Assembly (NCBI GenBank): GCA_003520365.1
Contig: DOUW01000040.1
Coordinates: 386 to 8,896 of the forward strand
Direction: 5' to 3'
DNA from: Massilia sp.
Lineage (GTDB): Bacteria > Pseudomonadota > Gammaproteobacteria > Burkholderiales > Burkholderiaceae_D
DNA length: 8,511 nucleotides
Positions 1,462 to 8,338 of the stretch are shown here, piece by piece; the first letter of the stretch is position 1; each line of letters begins with the position of its first letter. Under the pieces are notes generated by a model. That model did no database searches and had not been told where the DNA came from. It saw only the letters and a list, made by a program, of their open reading frames with translations. The position numbers and the translations under genes were made by a program.

Positions 1462-3384
1462 TCAGCGTGCCGCAGCCGCCATCGCAGCCCCCGGCTGCAC
1501 CAGCTGCAAGTTAGCAGCCCCGCCTCGCACCGGTGTCGCCGTCTCGCCAAACTGATATGCCCCCGCCTCGTGCATTTCCCACGCGCCGTCCCCCAACAGG
1601 CGCAGCACATGGGTATGGTGGCGCAGTACGGCGGCGCGGTGCGCGATGCTGATCAGGGTGGTGCCGTTGGCGCGCAGGCGCGCATACAGCGCGGCTTCGT
1701 TGGCGCTGTCGAGCGCGCTGGTCGCTTCGTCCAGGATCACGATGCTCGGCTTGTGCACCAGCACGCGGGCGAAGGCCAGGCGTTGCTGTTCGCCGACCGA
1801 CAGCAGCTTTTCCCAGTCGTGCACGGCGTCCAGGCCGCCCATCCGTTCGGCCAGGCGCGGCAGGTGCACCTCTTCCAGGATGGCCAGCAGCTGGGCGTCG
1901 CTCAGGTCGGTGTGCGCGCTGGGATAGATGAGCTGGCTGCGCAGCGTGCCCGTTTGCAGGTAAGGCTGCTGCGGCAGGAAGAAGAAGTTTTCCTGCGGCG
2001 GATGATGGATCACGCCGCTGCCGGTATTCCACAGGCCCGCGATCGCGCGCAGCAGCGAACTTTTGCCGCAGCCGCTCTCGCCGGTGATGAGCAGGGCGTC
2101 GCCCGGCTTCAGGCTCAGGTTCAGGTCCTTGATGAGCACCCGGTCCGATTGCGGCGGGTGCAGGGTCAGGGATTCCAGCGCCAGTTGCGCACCCGGACGC
2201 ATCTGGATGCGCGGCTGCGTGCTCTCGGCGGCCGGCGCTTGCGCTTGCGGTTCCGGCAGCATCAGCCTGGACAGGGCCTGCAAGCGGTCGATGCCGGCCA
2301 CGAAGCGGCTCAGGCTCTCGAAGTTATCGACGATCAGCCCCACGGCGGCCAGCACGGCGGTAAACGCTCCCGCCGCCTGGACCGCCCGGCCCACTTCCAG
2401 TTCGCCCGACAGGACGCCCTGGGCCAGGATCACGAAGGGCAGCACCAGGGTGAGCTGGCTGAAGGTGCGCTGGAACAGGTTGAGCGAGCACTGCTTGCGG
2501 ATCAGCTGCCCGAAATTCTGGATGACCTGCTCGAACTTGCCGTCGATGTGCGCGCGTTCCTGGGCTTCGCCGCGGTAGAAGGCGATCGATTCGGCGTTTT
2601 CGCGCAGGCGCACCAGGCTGAAGCGGAAGTCCGCTTCGCGCCGCAGCTGCCGGAAGTTCAGCTGGATCAGCGGGTTGCCGTAGATGTAGAGGGCGACCAC
2701 GGTACCCGCCAGCGCGTACACGGCCAGCACGCCGACCAGCACCCGCGAGATCGACCACAGCACGGCGCTGAACGCCACCAGTTGCATGATCGAGCCCAGG
2801 AAGATCAGCAGGAAGTGGATGGAGCGACCGGTAAAGGTGTTGATGTCCTCGCTGATGCGCTGGTCGGGGTTGTCGATCTCGCTGTCGCCACGCAGGCGAT
2901 AGTATTTGCGCCCGTTCAGGTAGCCGTCGAGGAAACGGCCGGTCAACCAGCGCCGCCACTGGTTGGCGAAGCGGTCGCGCATGTAGTAATAGAAGGCGTA
3001 GACCGGTATCGCGAAGGCCAGCACCAGCAGGCAGGCGCGCACCGAGGTCCAGAAGCGGTCGCCGTTCCTCGCCGCCAGCGCCGAGGTCATCTCGCCGGCC
3101 TGGTCGTTCAGCATGACCGCCAGCTTGGTCTCGACCAGCATCAGCGCGATCAGCAGCAAGAGCAGGGTCCAGGCCGTCCTTTTTTCCTCGCCCAGCCAGT
3201 ACGGTTTCGCCACATTGACGAACTGCTTCCAGGCCGCGAGCGACAGCGGCGCTGCGCGGCGCCCCTTGCCCTGTGCCGCGGGAGTGTCCCCGGAAGTGGC
3301 GCCGCTGGCGGCGGAGGTCGGCGCAGAGGCAGGCGCGAGCTTAGGTGCGAGCTTAGGCGCGAGGGTAGGCGTAGTCATGGTCAT
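1462..3384 (-). CDS. SbmA/BacA/YddA-type ABC transporter, fused permease and ATPase
   Basis: An inner-membrane half-transporter with the permease and nucleotide-binding domain on one chain, of the family annotated as peptide, bleomycin or vitamin B12 transporters. Numbered from the chosen ATG (640 aa): a low-complexity Ala/Pro/Lys N-terminus (1-45); transmembrane segments near 70-90, 113-135, 187-208, 214-235 and ~311-354; the family motif NPDQRISEDI at 172-181; Walker A GESGCGKSS at 435-443; signature LSVGEQQR at 528-535; Walker B SIVILDEA at 547-554; and the switch histidine (SIAHRA) at 582. All ATPase motifs are intact. The same frame stays open to an ATG at 3594 (710 aa). I chose 3384 because the extra 70 residues look non-coding and overlap inverted repeats. 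No strong Shine-Dalgarno supports either start, and an ATG two codons on (3378) is equally possible. Direction of transport and substrate cannot be read from sequence. Confidence 0.9.
   Translation of the reverse strand: MTMTTPTLAPKLAPKLAPASAPTSAASGATSGDTPAAQGKGRRAAPLSLAAWKQFVNVAKPYWLGEEKRTAWTLLLLLIALMLVETKLAVMLNDQAGEMTSALAARNGDRFWTSVRACLLVLAFAIPVYAFYYYMRDRFANQWRRWLTGRFLDGYLNGRKYYRLRGDSEIDNPDQRISEDINTFTGRSIHFLLIFLGSIMQLVAFSAVLWSISRVLVGVLAVYALAGTVVALYIYGNPLIQLNFRQLRREADFRFSLVRLRENAESIAFYRGEAQERAHIDGKFEQVIQNFGQLIRKQCSLNLFQRTFSQLTLVLPFVILAQGVLSGELEVGRAVQAAGAFTAVLAAVGLIVDNFESLSRFVAGIDRLQALSRLMLPEPQAQAPAAESTQPRIQMRPGAQLALESLTLHPPQSDRVLIKDLNLSLKPGDALLITGESGCGKSSLLRAIAGLWNTGSGVIHHPPQENFFFLPQQPYLQTGTLRSQLIYPSAHTDLSDAQLLAILEEVHLPRLAERMGGLDAVHDWEKLLSVGEQQRLAFARVLVHKPSIVILDEATSALDSANEAALYARLRANGTTLISIAHRAAVLRHHTHVLRLLGDGAWEMHEAGAYQFGETATPVRGGAANLQLVQPGAAMAAAAR
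3332..3367 (-). repeat. Three tandem 12-bp units encoding LAPK-type repeats
   Basis: Three consecutive 12-base units (3332-3343, 3344-3355, 3356-3367), differing at a few bases, lie just inside the 5' end of the ABC transporter gene. On the minus strand they encode LAP followed by K, repeated, then a run of Ala/Pro/Ser. The unit is a multiple of three, so copy-number change by slippage would keep the frame and only alter the length of the cytoplasmic N-terminal tail. Confidence 0.75.
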
Positions 3385-3541
3385 TCGGTATCGGTGATCG
3401 CCTGGGTTTCCAATGCCCGGCGCGAGCGATGTCGATGATCCCGAAGAATGTGCAGGAAAGCGTGCCGGAAGGCGTTCCGGAGCGCTGCATGCCCTCGCTC
3501 GTGCCGTCGTTCCACGGCCGGGCGCATGGTATTGCCCGAGC

Positions 3542-3591
3542 CGTACGCTCAGCATACGACCGGGAATCGGGCTGTTCCGTTCGAAAACGGA
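3542..3591. promoter_or_regulatory. Two inverted repeats upstream of the ABC transporter
   Basis: In the 283-base spacer between the receptor and transporter genes, 3542-3558 reads as 8-base arms around a central C (CGTACGCT-C-AGCATACG) with one mismatch. Positions 3576-3591 are perfect 6-base arms TCCGTT/AACGGA around CGAA. Either could be an operator or an mRNA hairpin for the transporter gene on the minus strand. No convincing promoter hexamers were found next to them. The rest of the spacer shows only the terminator-like hairpin at its right end. Confidence 0.35.
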
Positions 3592-3639
3592 CATAGCGCT
3601 CGCTGCCCTTTCTGAACAGGCCAGGGCGCGGTCGCTATT

Positions 3640-3667: not shown

Positions 3668-6109
3668 TCAGAACGCATATTCGGCGCGCGCATACATGGT
3701 CCGCCCGTTGATCCCGAACGGGCAGGTCTCCCAGCAATGCGTGAAGCCCATCTGCGGGAAGGGCGCCGCGCGTTGCGGATCCCAGCGCGTCGGATAGGTG
3801 TCGAACAGGTTGTTCACGCCAGCCGAGAAACTGAGCGCCTTGCTGAGCGCATAGCGGCTAGAGAGGTCGAGCAGCCACTTCGCTTTCCAGGTCTGGATGA
3901 AGGGCGCCGTGAAGCCCTGGCCCTGCACCTCGCCGTAGTAGTTGGCGCGCAGGTTCGCGTTCCAGGCGCCGCGCGAGAAGTCGGCCGCCACCACGTGGTG
4001 CTGGCGCGGCTGGCCGCGTTCGATCAGGGTCACCTGGGCGTCGTCGAACAGCTGGGCGCCGGTGAGAACGGCCGATTGCGAATGGCGCGACTTCACTTTC
4101 GTCCTGTTCAGGCCCAGCTGGCCGGACAGCACCAGTGTGCCGCCGGCGACGCCGCGTGTCGTGTGTTCGGCGACGATGTCCAGGCCGCGCGTCTCGGTGT
4201 CGATCGCGTTCGTGAAAAACTGGGCCTGGCCGACGCGCAGCGGCGCGAGGATGGCGCGGATCGGGCAGGCCGCGGGCGTGGGGCAGGCGCCGCTCTCGGG
4301 AGCGATCGTGCTGGAGAAGACGATGCGGTCATCGATGTCGGTGCGGTACAGGTCGGCCGTGATGCTGAAGTTGGGCGCCGGACGCAGCACGATGCCGGCG
4401 CTGGCGCTGCGCGAGGTCTCGTCCTTCAGCGGTGCGATGCCGAAGGCGCGGGTGACGGCGCTGCCTTCGCGCGCGGTGAGGGTGTCGGTCAGCACGCCGG
4501 CGCCGTTCAGGTTGGTCGATACCGAGCTGTAGAACTTCTGCTGCACCGACGGCGCGCGAAAACCCGTGGAGGCGCTGGCGCGTAGGCCGATCGTGCGGCT
4601 CGGGTGGTAGCGCGCGATCAGCTTGCCGGTGGTGGTGCTGCCGAAGTCGGAATAGCGCTCGCGCCGCAGGGCCGAACCGAGCGTGAGCCGGTCGCTCCAC
4701 TTGTGCTCGGCGTCGATGTAGAAGGCGGTGTTGTGGCGGCCGTCGTAGACCTGGGTCGCCGGCGTGTAGCCCGGGAAGCCCTGGATGCCGGCCTGGGCGA
4801 TGCCGCCGTGCTGGTCGCGGATGACCAGCGCCGGGTTGTTCGTGCGGCCGTACTGGTAAGAGGCCGGTTCGCCGGCCTCGATGCGGTAGCTGTCGCGCCG
4901 GTATTCGAAGCCGGTGCCGATGAAGATCGGCTGGCCGGCGAAGCGCACCGAGCCCTTGAAGTCGAGGTTGAAGGTCGACTGGTGGAAGCCCAGCGTGCCG
5001 GTGTAGGCCGCGAAGGGCGACTCGCATTTACACGGGTTCTCGTACCAGTAGCTGACGTTGATCGAGTTGCGCTCGTTGAACACCAGTTCGCTGCGGCCGT
5101 GGTTGAAGCTGGCATCGTATTTCCAGTCGCCGGCGAGAATGCCGCGGTAGCCGACCGCCAGCGAGGCGTCGCGCACCTCGGTGCGAATCTCCGGCAGGAA
5201 GCCGTTCGGGTACACGGCCGGCACGTTGCGCGCATCCTCGCGCGGACGGAAGAAACCGGCCGCCTCGCCGGTGCGTTTCGACGCGCCGCCGAACAGGTAC
5301 AGTTCGCCGCCGCCCAGCGGCAGCGCGGCGTTGGTCCACAGGTAGCCGTCCTTGGCGCGGCTGTCGCCGATGCGCTGGGTCACGCGCGCCGGCGTCACGC
5401 GCAGGGTATCGAGGCCGGCGCGGTTGGTTTCGCCGCGCTTGCGCGCTTCCATCGCCAGCGACAGGTAGCCGCCGTTCGAGCCCAGCGCGAAGCCGTGGTA
5501 GGCACTGGCGCCGTAAGTGTCGCCGTCGCCCTCGGAGGTGGTGCCGGCGCTGGCGCTGACCAGGCCCTTGCCCACGCCTTCCTTCAGCACGATGTTGATC
5601 ACGCCGGCGATCGCATCCGACCCGTACTGGGCGGCGGCGCCGTCGCGCAGCACCTCGATGTGGTGAATGGCCGACATCGGGATCGCATTGATGTCGGTGC
5701 CGGCCGAGCCGCGCCCGACCGTCTGCTGCACGTTCACCAGCGCCTGCTGGTGGCGGCGCTTGCCGTTGACCAACACCAGCAGCTGGTCCGGCCCCAGGCC
5801 GCGCAGCGTCGCCGGGCGGATGATGTCGGTGCCGTCGCTGATGAAGGTGGTGCTGAAATTGAACGAGGGGTCGAGCTCCTGCAGGGCCTTGCCCAGTTCC
5901 AGCGTGCCGGTCGAGGCAAGGTCCCTGGCGCCCACCAGCCCCACCGGCACCGAGGTGTCGAGGGCCGAGCGGGCGGCGCCGCGCGAGCCGACCACGACGA
6001 CCGTCTGCGTGTCCGCATCGCTCGCCGCGGCCGTTTGTGCTTCTGCATGGGGAAAGGCGGCCAGCAGCGCAGCGGCCAGCAGGGTGGGGTGGAAGGTCGG
6101 GTGGGGCAT
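3668..6109 (-). CDS. TonB-dependent outer-membrane receptor, 813 aa
   Basis: A complete ligand-gated outer-membrane channel driven by TonB. Residues 1-24 are a signal peptide with likely cleavage after AEA (AEA|QT). The stretch TQTVVVVGSR (34-43) resembles a TonB box. The plug domain covers roughly 50-180 and carries LLVLVNGKRRHQ (110-121), IEVLRDGAAAQYGSDAIAGV (151-170) and NIVLKEG (172-178). The remainder is the beta-barrel, with late-barrel motifs GLRASASTGFRAPS (508-521) and GVNNLFD (764-770), ending in the terminal Phe typical of outer-membrane proteins (YARAEYAF). Length is normal. It belongs to a large group with this conserved plug whose substrates are mostly unknown. Six cysteines form three close pairs (360/362, 609/615, 792/796). 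The start at 6109 is well supported: AAGGAA lies 5 bases upstream (6115-6120), and the ATG opens directly into the signal peptide. The substrate cannot be stated. Confidence 0.95.
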   Translation of the reverse strand: MPHPTFHPTLLAAALLAAFPHAEAQTAAASDADTQTVVVVGSRGAARSALDTSVPVGLVGARDLASTGTLELGKALQELDPSFNFSTTFISDGTDIIRPATLRGLGPDQLLVLVNGKRRHQQALVNVQQTVGRGSAGTDINAIPMSAIHHIEVLRDGAAAQYGSDAIAGVINIVLKEGVGKGLVSASAGTTSEGDGDTYGASAYHGFALGSNGGYLSLAMEARKRGETNRAGLDTLRVTPARVTQRIGDSRAKDGYLWTNAALPLGGGELYLFGGASKRTGEAAGFFRPREDARNVPAVYPNGFLPEIRTEVRDASLAVGYRGILAGDWKYDASFNHGRSELVFNERNSINVSYWYENPCKCESPFAAYTGTLGFHQSTFNLDFKGSVRFAGQPIFIGTGFEYRRDSYRIEAGEPASYQYGRTNNPALVIRDQHGGIAQAGIQGFPGYTPATQVYDGRHNTAFYIDAEHKWSDRLTLGSALRRERYSDFGSTTTGKLIARYHPSRTIGLRASASTGFRAPSVQQKFYSSVSTNLNGAGVLTDTLTAREGSAVTRAFGIAPLKDETSRSASAGIVLRPAPNFSITADLYRTDIDDRIVFSSTIAPESGACPTPAACPIRAILAPLRVGQAQFFTNAIDTETRGLDIVAEHTTRGVAGGTLVLSGQLGLNRTKVKSRHSQSAVLTGAQLFDDAQVTLIERGQPRQHHVVAADFSRGAWNANLRANYYGEVQGQGFTAPFIQTWKAKWLLDLSSRYALSKALSFSAGVNNLFDTYPTRWDPQRAAPFPQMGFTHCWETCPFGINGRTMYARAEYAF

Positions 6110-6316: not shown

Positions 6317-7522
6317 ATGGATTTGGTGTACAAAAACGAGAAGACACTGTTCGTGCTGATGCTGGTGCTCTCGCTCCTCGTCTGGGCCGGGCTGGTGCTG
6401 GGCCTCGGCTGGGCGGTGCTGAGCTATGCGCTGATGTTCTTCCTGTTCTACTGCTTCGCGCAGTCGGCGCTGATTTCCTATATCAAGGGCACCGGCGTGC
6501 GCATCACCGCCGAGCAGTTTCCCGACCTCGACCGCCAGATCCTGGCCTGCTGCGCCAAGCTGGGCCTGGAGCGCGAACCCGAGGCCTACCTGCTGCAGAT
6601 GGGCGGTTCGCTGAACGCCTTTGCCACCCGCTTCCTGGGGCGCGACTTCCTGGTGCTGTACACCGACGTGGTCGATGGCCTGCACGACAATCCGGACGCG
6701 CTGAATTTCTACATCGGCCACGAGATCGGCCACATCAAGCGCAAGCACCTGAGCTGGGCGACCGTGCTGCTGCCGGCCTCGATGCTGCCGCTGGTCGGCG
6801 CCGCCTATTCTCGCGCCCGCGAGTACACCTGCGACCGCCACGGCCTGGCGGCCTGCGAGCAAGCGATCAACGCCGAATTCGGCATGGCCGCGCTGGCGGC
6901 CGGCGGCAGGCGCTGGCGCACCATGAACAAGAGCGCATACATCGAGCAGTCGCGCGAGACCGAAGGCTTCTGGATGTCCTTCCATGAGCTGGTCGGCGAC
7001 TACCCCTGGCTGGTCAAGCGCATGGCCGCGGTGCGTGCCCTGGCCGCCGGGCAGGAAGTACAACAGCCGCGCCGCCACTGGCTGGCCGCGCTGATGGCCC
7101 TGTTCGTGCCGCGCATGGGTGCCGGCGGCGCAGGCGGCGTGGTGGTGCTGGCGGTGATGGCGGGTATCCTGGCGGCGGTCGGTATCCCGGCCTACCAGGC
7201 CTACCAGCAGAAGGCCGTGGTGGCCAGTGCCTATGCCGCCGGCCAGGGCGCCAGCGCCAAGGTCGAGGCCTATCTCGTCGAGCACGGCAGCATCCCGACC
7301 CTGGCCCAGGCCGGCGTGCAGGCCAGCGCCGGCGCTCCCGCCGTGCGCGAACTGGAAATCGACCCGAAGAACGCGACCCTGCGCGTGCTGACCAGCATCG
7401 AGACGAAACAGGGCGCCGGAGTGCTCGTGTTCGAGCCTTCGATGGACGAGGAGAAGAACATCTCCTGGGCCTGCAGCGCCGAAGGGATCATGCCGGATGC
7501 GCTGCCCGAAGATTGCCGCTAG
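6317..7522 (+). CDS. M48 zinc metallopeptidase with C-terminal pilin-like domain
   Basis: A membrane-bound metalloprotease of the HtpX/Ste24 family fused to a pilin-like tail, 401 aa. Two hydrophobic segments (10-31 and 33-52) come first. The zinc site HEIGH is at 135-139, and the third ligand is probably E169 in REYTCDRHG, with the conserved D173 four residues on. A further hydrophobic stretch spans 146-164. Residues ~274-296 (GILAAVGIPAYQAY) closely match the N-terminal helix of type IV pilins. Residues 380-401 resemble a pilin C-terminus, with Cys386 and Cys400 as the possible disulfide loop and a LPEDCR ending. The prepilin cleavage motif and Glu5 are missing, so it should not be processed like a pilin. 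The start is supported by GAAAGG at 6304-6309, seven bases upstream. It is divergent from the TonB receptor. HtpX-like proteases degrade damaged membrane proteins; the substrate here is unknown. Confidence 0.9.
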   Translation: MDLVYKNEKTLFVLMLVLSLLVWAGLVLGLGWAVLSYALMFFLFYCFAQSALISYIKGTGVRITAEQFPDLDRQILACCAKLGLEREPEAYLLQMGGSLNAFATRFLGRDFLVLYTDVVDGLHDNPDALNFYIGHEIGHIKRKHLSWATVLLPASMLPLVGAAYSRAREYTCDRHGLAACEQAINAEFGMAALAAGGRRWRTMNKSAYIEQSRETEGFWMSFHELVGDYPWLVKRMAAVRALAAGQEVQQPRRHWLAALMALFVPRMGAGGAGGVVVLAVMAGILAAVGIPAYQAYQQKAVVASAYAAGQGASAKVEAYLVEHGSIPTLAQAGVQASAGAPAVRELEIDPKNATLRVLTSIETKQGAGVLVFEPSMDEEKNISWACSAEGIMPDALPEDCR

Positions 7523-7558: not shown

Positions 7559-8338
7559 CTACTCTTGCTGGTCGCGCATCCACTCCTTCAAGCCGTTGAC
7601 CCAGTCCTTGGCCGGCAGGTTGTAGCGCCGTTTGATCTCGCCGGCGCGCTCGTAGAGCACCGAGAAATCGATCTCTGGTGCGTTCTTGAAGGCGAGGACG
7701 ACGATGTTCGCGTCGTGCACCTCGGGCAGCCATACCACGGCGTCGAACACCTCGCGCATCGCGTCCAGGTTCCTGTCGTAGCAGGAGATGTCGCCGAACA
7801 CGTTTGTGGTCATGATGCCGTCCCGGCCCAGGCAGTCGAAGCAGGCTTGATAGAACGCCGGCGTATCGAACACCGGCCCGCGCGCCTCCTCGTCGTACAG
7901 GTCGACCTGCAGCACGTCGACCTTGCCGTGGTTGGCCGGGTCGAGCACGAAGTCGAGGGCGTTCATCTCGCGCACCTGCAGGCGCGCGTCGTTCGGCGGC
8001 AGTTCGAACAGGGCGCGGCAGATCGCGATCACGTTCGGGTTCAGCTCGGCCGCCGTCACCTTCGCTTCGGGAAAGCGGCGATGGCAGAACTTGGTGAGCG
8101 CCGCGCTGCCCAGGCCCAGCTGCACGATGTGCCGCGGCGCGTCGAGAAACAGCATCCACGCCATCATCATCTGCACGTAGGTCAGCTCGATCGCATCCGG
8201 ACGCGCCAGGCGCATCGCGCCTTGCTCCCACGAGGTGCCCAGGTGCAGCGAGCGCACGCCGTCGAATTCGGTGATGGTGGCGGGAGGATGGCCCGGCTGG
8301 GCGAAACGGGGATCGAAAGGAGGGGGCTTGCTTGGCAT
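7559..8338 (-). CDS. Spermidine-synthase-like protein (methyltransferase fold), 259 aa
   Basis: It resembles the SpeE family, with a Rossmann nucleotide fold that in true members transfers an aminopropyl group from decarboxylated S-adenosylmethionine to putrescine. Visible landmarks: strand and loop IVQLGLGSAALTKFC at 71-85 in place of the usual GGGDG; acidic residue E98 in AELNPNV, which normally contacts the cofactor; the MNALDF region at 125-130; and VDLYDEEARGP at 145-155 where SpeE has its catalytic Asp loop (D146 aligned). An N-terminal beta segment (21-34) is also typical. Because the glycine motif and active-site loop differ, polyamine synthesis is doubtful; many such paralogs are of unknown function. 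The predicted protein is soluble and cytosolic. No clear Shine-Dalgarno precedes the ATG at 8338, but no better start lies nearby. It is convergent with the peptidase gene. Confidence 0.85.
   Translation of the reverse strand: MPSKPPPFDPRFAQPGHPPATITEFDGVRSLHLGTSWEQGAMRLARPDAIELTYVQMMMAWMLFLDAPRHIVQLGLGSAALTKFCHRRFPEAKVTAAELNPNVIAICRALFELPPNDARLQVREMNALDFVLDPANHGKVDVLQVDLYDEEARGPVFDTPAFYQACFDCLGRDGIMTTNVFGDISCYDRNLDAMREVFDAVVWLPEVHDANIVVLAFKNAPEIDFSVLYERAGEIKRRYNLPAKDWVNGLKEWMRDQQE

Follow-up and report, generated by a model that had tools for sequence, protein, structure and literature searches.

The DNA stretch analysed here, hereafter the window, spans 8,511 nucleotides of a Massilia sp. 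contig (DOUW01000040.1), and carries on its + strand, at positions 6317-7522, a gene encoding a protein of 401 residues, in which an M48 protease and a C-terminal pilin module are joined in one uninterrupted frame. The extent of the gene is set by its open reading frame (ORF) and translation, and is shared by full-length homologues; all the features described below lie on the same strand. The protein opens with a predicted transmembrane hairpin, formed by helices at residues 6-30 and 33-59 (6332..6493; hydropathy and structure model), and continues with the protease domain (residues 61-250; 6497..7066), which hosts a conserved HEIGH zinc motif (residues 135-139; 6719..6733) and E169 (6821..6823), presumably the third zinc ligand, as is usual in the M48 family. 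A Gly-rich linker, defined from the sequence and the structure model (residues 251-272; 7067..7132), includes most of a GGAGG stretch (residues 270-274), and leads to a modelled pilin-type alpha-1 helix (residues 273-323; 7133..7285), the first half of which is the predicted third transmembrane helix. The pilin head (residues 324-401; 7286..7519; Pfam PF00114 and structure model) contains a sheet, with strands at residues 343-389, and the C-terminal Cys pair of pilins, C386 (7472..7474) and C400 (7514..7516).

The M48-pilin fusion is confirmed. Pfam matches both halves and homologues run full length, and the preliminary description of this DNA, which had placed an intact M48 zinc site and a pilin in the same frame, is thus correct on this point. 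In public databases the nearest named copy, P0002, is listed at 100% identity and belongs to Massilia haematophila; it too has 401 residues, and among the best 120 of 2128 matches homologues measure 394-436 residues throughout, query included. Conservation was monitored in a 100-row alignment (A3), made of the window protein and 99 rows hand-picked for spread among 239 other listed matches. The source lists hold the best 120 of 2128 and the best 120 of 3153 matches, head-less forms (see below) are thus under-represented, and many rows have no precomputed PF00114 assignment. In the alignment the fusion is conserved, along with zinc ligands and pilin Cys pair.

The protease half matches PF01435 (Peptidase_M48) with 59.7 bits, over the gathering score of 20.3, the best stretch covering residues 67-149. 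Peptidase_M56 scores 12.5 bits, below its cut-off of 31, and the protein falls well short of an HtpX equivalog, the best NCBIfam HtpX model listed giving 24.9 bits against a cut-off of 341. H135, E136 and E169 are kept in all 100 rows, H139 in 99, and Cys 78, 79 and 172 in 100/100. By family and ligands, the gene product can be assigned to M48 zinc proteases, and its proteolytic activity is presumed.

The C-terminal part matches Pfam Pilin over the cut-off at residues 299-401, and shuffled heads reach at most 5.1 bits, against 34.1. By phmmer, gonococcal and meningococcal pilins are matched among PDB chains over about residues 276-387. As expected from the preliminary description, the structure model features a long alpha-1 helix followed by a sheet head, and the fold matches solved pilins among the PDB families listed; pLDDT falls below 50 only at residues 269-272. 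Pilin-type residues in the helix, within the motif region 283-296, are kept (P291 and Y293 in 100/100 rows, Y296 in 98/100), as are W384 and C386 (100/100) and C400 (99/99 rows with a letter there) in the head, in rows that, being top matches, favour head-bearing forms. Mean entropy is 0.94 for the helix, 0.89 for the protease and 1.73 for the head; helix and protease are thus similarly conserved, and the head less so.

Pilins are known as subunits of fibres, extracted from the membrane once they have been cleaved. The module described here lacks the cut site. The prepilin motif (class III signal, Gly-1 and Glu5) is found in 0/100 rows, and in a manual alignment GGAGG occupies prepilin positions 1-5, where FTLIE would stand; the absence of the prepilin peptidase motif and of Glu5 had been correctly spotted from the start. 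According to PMC10191384, docking into the filament is presumably driven by Glu5 and the free processed N-terminus. A module missing both would accordingly stay in the membrane, plausibly unable to leave it or to polymerise. This is not proof, as a filament tip pilin lacking Glu5 exists (PMC10191384).

Hydropathy reveals three hydrophobic stretches, two N-terminal and one at about residues 272-291. In the alignment the hairpin loop is nearly uncharged (mean K+R 0.05), and the hairpin ends carry 2.14 and 1.36, a pattern which fits a hairpin inserted from inside. The conserved protease Cys, together with the Cys pair of the head, which would need the periplasm because of disulphide formation, fit a protease inside and a head in the periplasm. 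Around the third helix the charge rule barely decides, mean K+R being 2.12 ahead of it and 1.76 behind it. The early assignment of the protease to the cytoplasmic side, and of the pilin head to the periplasm, thus agrees with hydrophobic stretches, hairpin charges and Cys residues, and stays a prediction, weak in the charges around the third helix.

The fusion is matched at E<=1e-8 in 11/62 genomes of the genus; in the order sample 35/399 genomes match. In the latter, 14 genomes encode the protease with the pilin-type helix and one (G069) the protease without it; in the remaining 20/399 the match falls solely on other proteins with a pilin domain, either fused or ordinary (most frames were read). 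The profile matches 249/369 genomes of the class sample, nearly all via the pilin part among the matches listed, and five have protease and helix; in the phylum sample 8/398 match the protease half, six of them with the helix. Searches of the order, class and phylum samples scored part of the candidates in each genome, and negatives are no proof of absence. The 26 carriers discussed hereafter are genomes from the genus, order and class samples, and each has a second M48 relative elsewhere, closer to the HtpX model, and over the cut-off of that model in 2/26.

Pilin domains without the motif are found at the end of other membrane proteins. According to Pfam, they terminate GYF_2+RDD (L041), zinc ribbon+RDD (L043) and RDD (L046) proteins, and likewise DUF2628 (L040, L061) and TM2 (L070) proteins; by eye only, L039, L042, L044, L050 and L142 are TM2-like, L047 is DUF2628-like, L138 and L143 are RDD-like. 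A search with the RDD-borne domain retrieved 28 proteins (25 RDD+Pilin, 1 DUF2628+Pilin, 1 TM2, 1 Pilin only). A domain tree was built from few columns (124), cut after the motif region, with canonical rows chosen by similarity to fused pilins, and therefore biased; it omits duplicates, L022, and rows either outside 95-150 residues or without the cutting motif pattern (L033, L037, head-less forms). In this tree 28/31 fused domains fall in one group, with partner types mixed (support 89/87, moderate and not starred). L029, L055 and L070 lie outside the group, two of the three having long branches. According to the starred branches, the fused label must have changed at least twice. Holding all 31 fused domains together is not rejected (approximately unbiased test, p 0.552), nor is a single clade of M48-borne pilins (p 0.161), which is 21 log units worse.

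G188, G226, G240, G271 and G217 were discarded as further fusions; the pilins in their long frames do have the motif, and some continue into a long C-terminal part. Frames of ~740-830 residues with a motif-less pilin domain at the end occur at L145:734-2947, L144:636-3128 and L078:1501-3378, the last cut by the locus. The start of the L145 protein resembles a lipoprotein signal (LLAGC). Were the N-terminus periplasmic, the topology usual for pilins would leave the head on the inside. Pilin-matching frames of 707-748 residues are found also in G639, G499, G724, G501, G614 and G651 (class sample).

The order of domains recalls that of BlaR1 and MecR1, in which a cytoplasmic gluzincin, a last membrane helix and an extracytoplasmic sensor follow one another, a likeness that rests here on predicted topology. 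In the parts of PMC7593790 consulted, BlaR1 and MecR1 share the same domain order, and a shift of the last membrane helix of MecR1 is proposed to open the protease. BlaR1 and MecR1 are M56 peptidases, whereas the window protein is M48 by Pfam, carries a pilin domain in place of the penicillin-binding sensor (no such Pfam match at E<=1), and has no BlaI-like partner among 20 neighbour ORFs. We tentatively favour, at less than an even chance, a BlaR1-like action. The predicted periplasmic head would engage a partner, for which another pilin, or else a pilin-like part of a filament machine, is the likely candidate, and the signal would pass through the last membrane helix to the predicted cytoplasmic protease. 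As this helix is also the pilin alpha-1 helix, a partner sitting on the head, or on the helix itself, could influence the protease. We infer that the module regulates or targets the protease, and, likewise, the identity of its ligand.

A number of observations weigh against this reading. The head is missing in 7/26 carriers (G015, G017, G058, G181, G310, G329, G796), which have instead 18-82 residues after residue 301; Ala and acidic residues abound in six of these tails, and Pfam Pilin matches none of the five head-less carriers scanned. The pilin-type helix is retained in head-less forms, altered in G017. In a phylogeny of the protease portion, with 25 rows (L037 and L038 are left out as long branches), the head/no-head state shows 5 changes, at least 4 of which are forced by well-supported (starred) branches, and the label is not clearly clustered (65-73 of 500 shuffles are as low). 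Every main branch has head-bearing forms, and the helix persists in the head-less ones, so that repeated loss of the head is the simplest reading; the changes could include gains. A signal borne by the head, absent in these carriers, cannot be essential in all. Mean dN/dS, calculated on 28 non-independent pairs from 8 close coding sequences, increases from 0.16 in the protease to 0.25 in the hairpin, 0.34 in the linker, 0.375 in the helix and 0.59 in the head. Absence of the head from these carriers, together with 0.59 against 0.16 of the protease, denotes weak constraint for a required sensor, and the helix too is above the protease. Beside these forms, the carrier at L033:1084-2475 encodes 464 residues, with a long acidic insertion between the pilin helix and a kept head.

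The genomic context adds to the doubts. PilP is present in 26/26 carrier genomes, but also in 62/62 genomes of the genus, of which 11 match the fusion. Type IV pili therefore do not discriminate carriers, and co-occurrence was ruled out as a proof of function; in the order sample PilP is found in 14/14 carriers and in 296/399 genomes overall (chance ~0.015, uncorrected for kinship). Neither a pilus-family match at E<=1e-5 nor a BlaI-like repressor was found among the 20 neighbour ORFs scanned, hand-picked from a codon-composition gene guess, from 12 of 14 loci. Conserved gene order is restricted to close relatives, being shared inside Massilia, by the trio L083/L084/L088, and by L086 with L091. 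In the light of pilus genes, neighbours and lost heads, the sensor or docking role assigned to the pilin domain in the preliminary description stays a conjecture. Other points concern the protein itself. Foldseek found no match at E<=0.001, the best, a pilin, being at 2.3e-03; the Pilin cut-off (22) is missed by two of the four head-bearing relatives scanned (L029, 20.4; L036, 14.6); the first zinc His is lost in carrier G338; in carrier G039 the gene is split over two overlapping frames (L024:975-2268); and, as the tip pilin of PMC10191384 indicates, a missing Glu5 alone leaves assembly possible. The split frame of G039 may result from natural decay or from a sequencing error.

The pilin module may alternatively be an anchor, that is an N-in/C-out helix with a small cap, recruited as third membrane helix with neither a specific signal nor a partner. 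We regard this as somewhat unlikely; still, head loss makes the sensing part optional or replaceable, and hence brings the anchor close behind the favoured reading. Persistence of the helix where the head is lost, the fast evolution of the head, the motif-less pilins on unrelated membrane proteins and the ordinary third hydrophobic stretch found at this place in the M48 relative L103 are all in line with it. Against it, the invariance of P291 and Y293, and near-invariance of Y296, plausibly exceeds the needs of a generic membrane helix, and the head, in which W384 and the Cys pair are kept in rows favouring head-bearing forms, still evolves at a dN/dS below 1. According to a third view, distinctly unlikely in our opinion, the module serves pilin quality control, mixing with membrane pilins or pseudopilins and bringing the protease to unassembled or misfolded prepilins for degradation. 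The helix kept by head-less forms, and the presence of PilP in all carriers, including the excess in the order sample, suit such a role, which is challenged by 51/62 genus genomes with PilP and no fusion match at E<=1e-8, by the lack of pilus-gene linkage among the 20 neighbour ORFs, and by fused pilins on proteins without protease, which it leaves unexplained. That the protein is a filament or pseudopilus subunit after all, its bulky N-terminus being removed by its own protease or by another enzyme, is very improbable; the modelled fold, and a tip subunit that may lack Glu5 (PMC10191384), are opposed by the absence of the prepilin motif in 100/100 rows, by GGAGG at positions 1-5, and by the docking role attributed to Glu5 and the free N-terminus in the same source. 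An artefact due to chance similarity or mis-joined genes has a negligible probability, as the frame is uninterrupted, homologues have uniform lengths among the best 120 of 2128 matches and shuffled heads score far lower; nothing in the window itself, and only the split gene of G039, speaks for it.

Returning to the BlaR1-like action, it may be extended to a dedicated family of tethered pilins, in which pilins without cut site, having abandoned fibre building, would be attached C-terminally to unrelated inner-membrane modules (M48, RDD, TM2+zinc ribbon, DUF2628), and shuffled among these as a shared periplasmic input reading the pilus machinery, the M48 form coupling it to proteolysis as BlaR1 does for beta-lactams. 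We deem this extension unlikely. If true, the pilin fold would have been reused as a fixed periplasmic module, forming the uncut end of a membrane protease as well as of other membrane proteins, and intracellular proteolysis could come under the control of pili or pseudopili, through their state. Labels such as 'PilA' or 'pilin' on proteins of ~250-450 residues may not mark pilus subunits.

Known proteins resemble the fusion in part. The M48 proteases HtpX, BepA and Ste24/ZMPSTE24 differ from the window protein, which has a C-terminal pilin and stays far below the HtpX equivalog cut-offs. Type IVa pilins (PilA/PilE) share with it the modelled alpha-1 helix and sheet head, the C-terminal Cys pair and the Pfam Pilin match, but the pilin of the window has no class III signal, Gly-1 or Glu5, and sits behind ~270 protease residues. 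Modular type IV pilins, as PilB and PilC of Streptococcus sanguinis, are N-terminal, carry a class III signal and are processed, according to the parts consulted of PMC8179133, where 264 architectures are counted, peptidase modules S74 and M26 among them, and an N-terminal IPR012902 is required; they are N-terminal and processed also in PMC10191384. The fusion is alike in joining a pilin to a functional domain, and unlike in that the pilin is C-terminal and motif-less, the order being reversed; proteins of this kind are therefore likely to escape that survey. Single pilins of the reversed kind are already in print. XAC3805, a Xanthomonas pilin-like protein with a DUF4339 domain, first annotated as pilA, has no prepilin leader, maps far from the pil cluster, and has been suggested as a possible pilA paralogue (PMC10333488, citing Dunger et al. 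2014). It includes no protease, and the name DUF4339 suggests an N-terminal membrane-linked domain like GYF_2 of L041; the M48 fusion and the wider set are not covered in the parts of that source consulted. IMG names both halves ('Zn-dependent protease with chaperone function/Tfp pilus assembly major pilin PilA'), and literature searches, based on titles and the start of abstracts, found no paper on the M48-pilin fusion or on the tethered set as a whole.

Some M48 relatives depart from the scheme. At L037:1375-2724, in a distant carrier, RELSH replaces HEXXH, the first zinc His is gone, and a pilin-like end is kept with its Cys; the product is possibly a pseudoprotease. The relative at L058:995-2140 has a third hydrophobic stretch, followed by a C-terminal part resembling by eye a GspG pseudopilin head, which was set aside as a lead only, as Pfam found none and the PDB match is weak (E 0.13). 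L103:1231-2277 has, at the place of the pilin, its third hydrophobic stretch and a short tail, and is a candidate for the form preceding the fusion. The neighbour ORFs encode transporters, metabolic enzymes, MurJ, EF-P, a CAAX-type protease and the like, 4/20 having no match at E<=1e-5, and one (L093) an HD-domain/LuxR-type regulator. In the window, the gene is accompanied on the - strand by an ABC transporter with a SbmA/BacA-like part (1462-3594), a TonB-dependent receptor (3668-6109) and a spermidine synthase-related protein (7559-8338).
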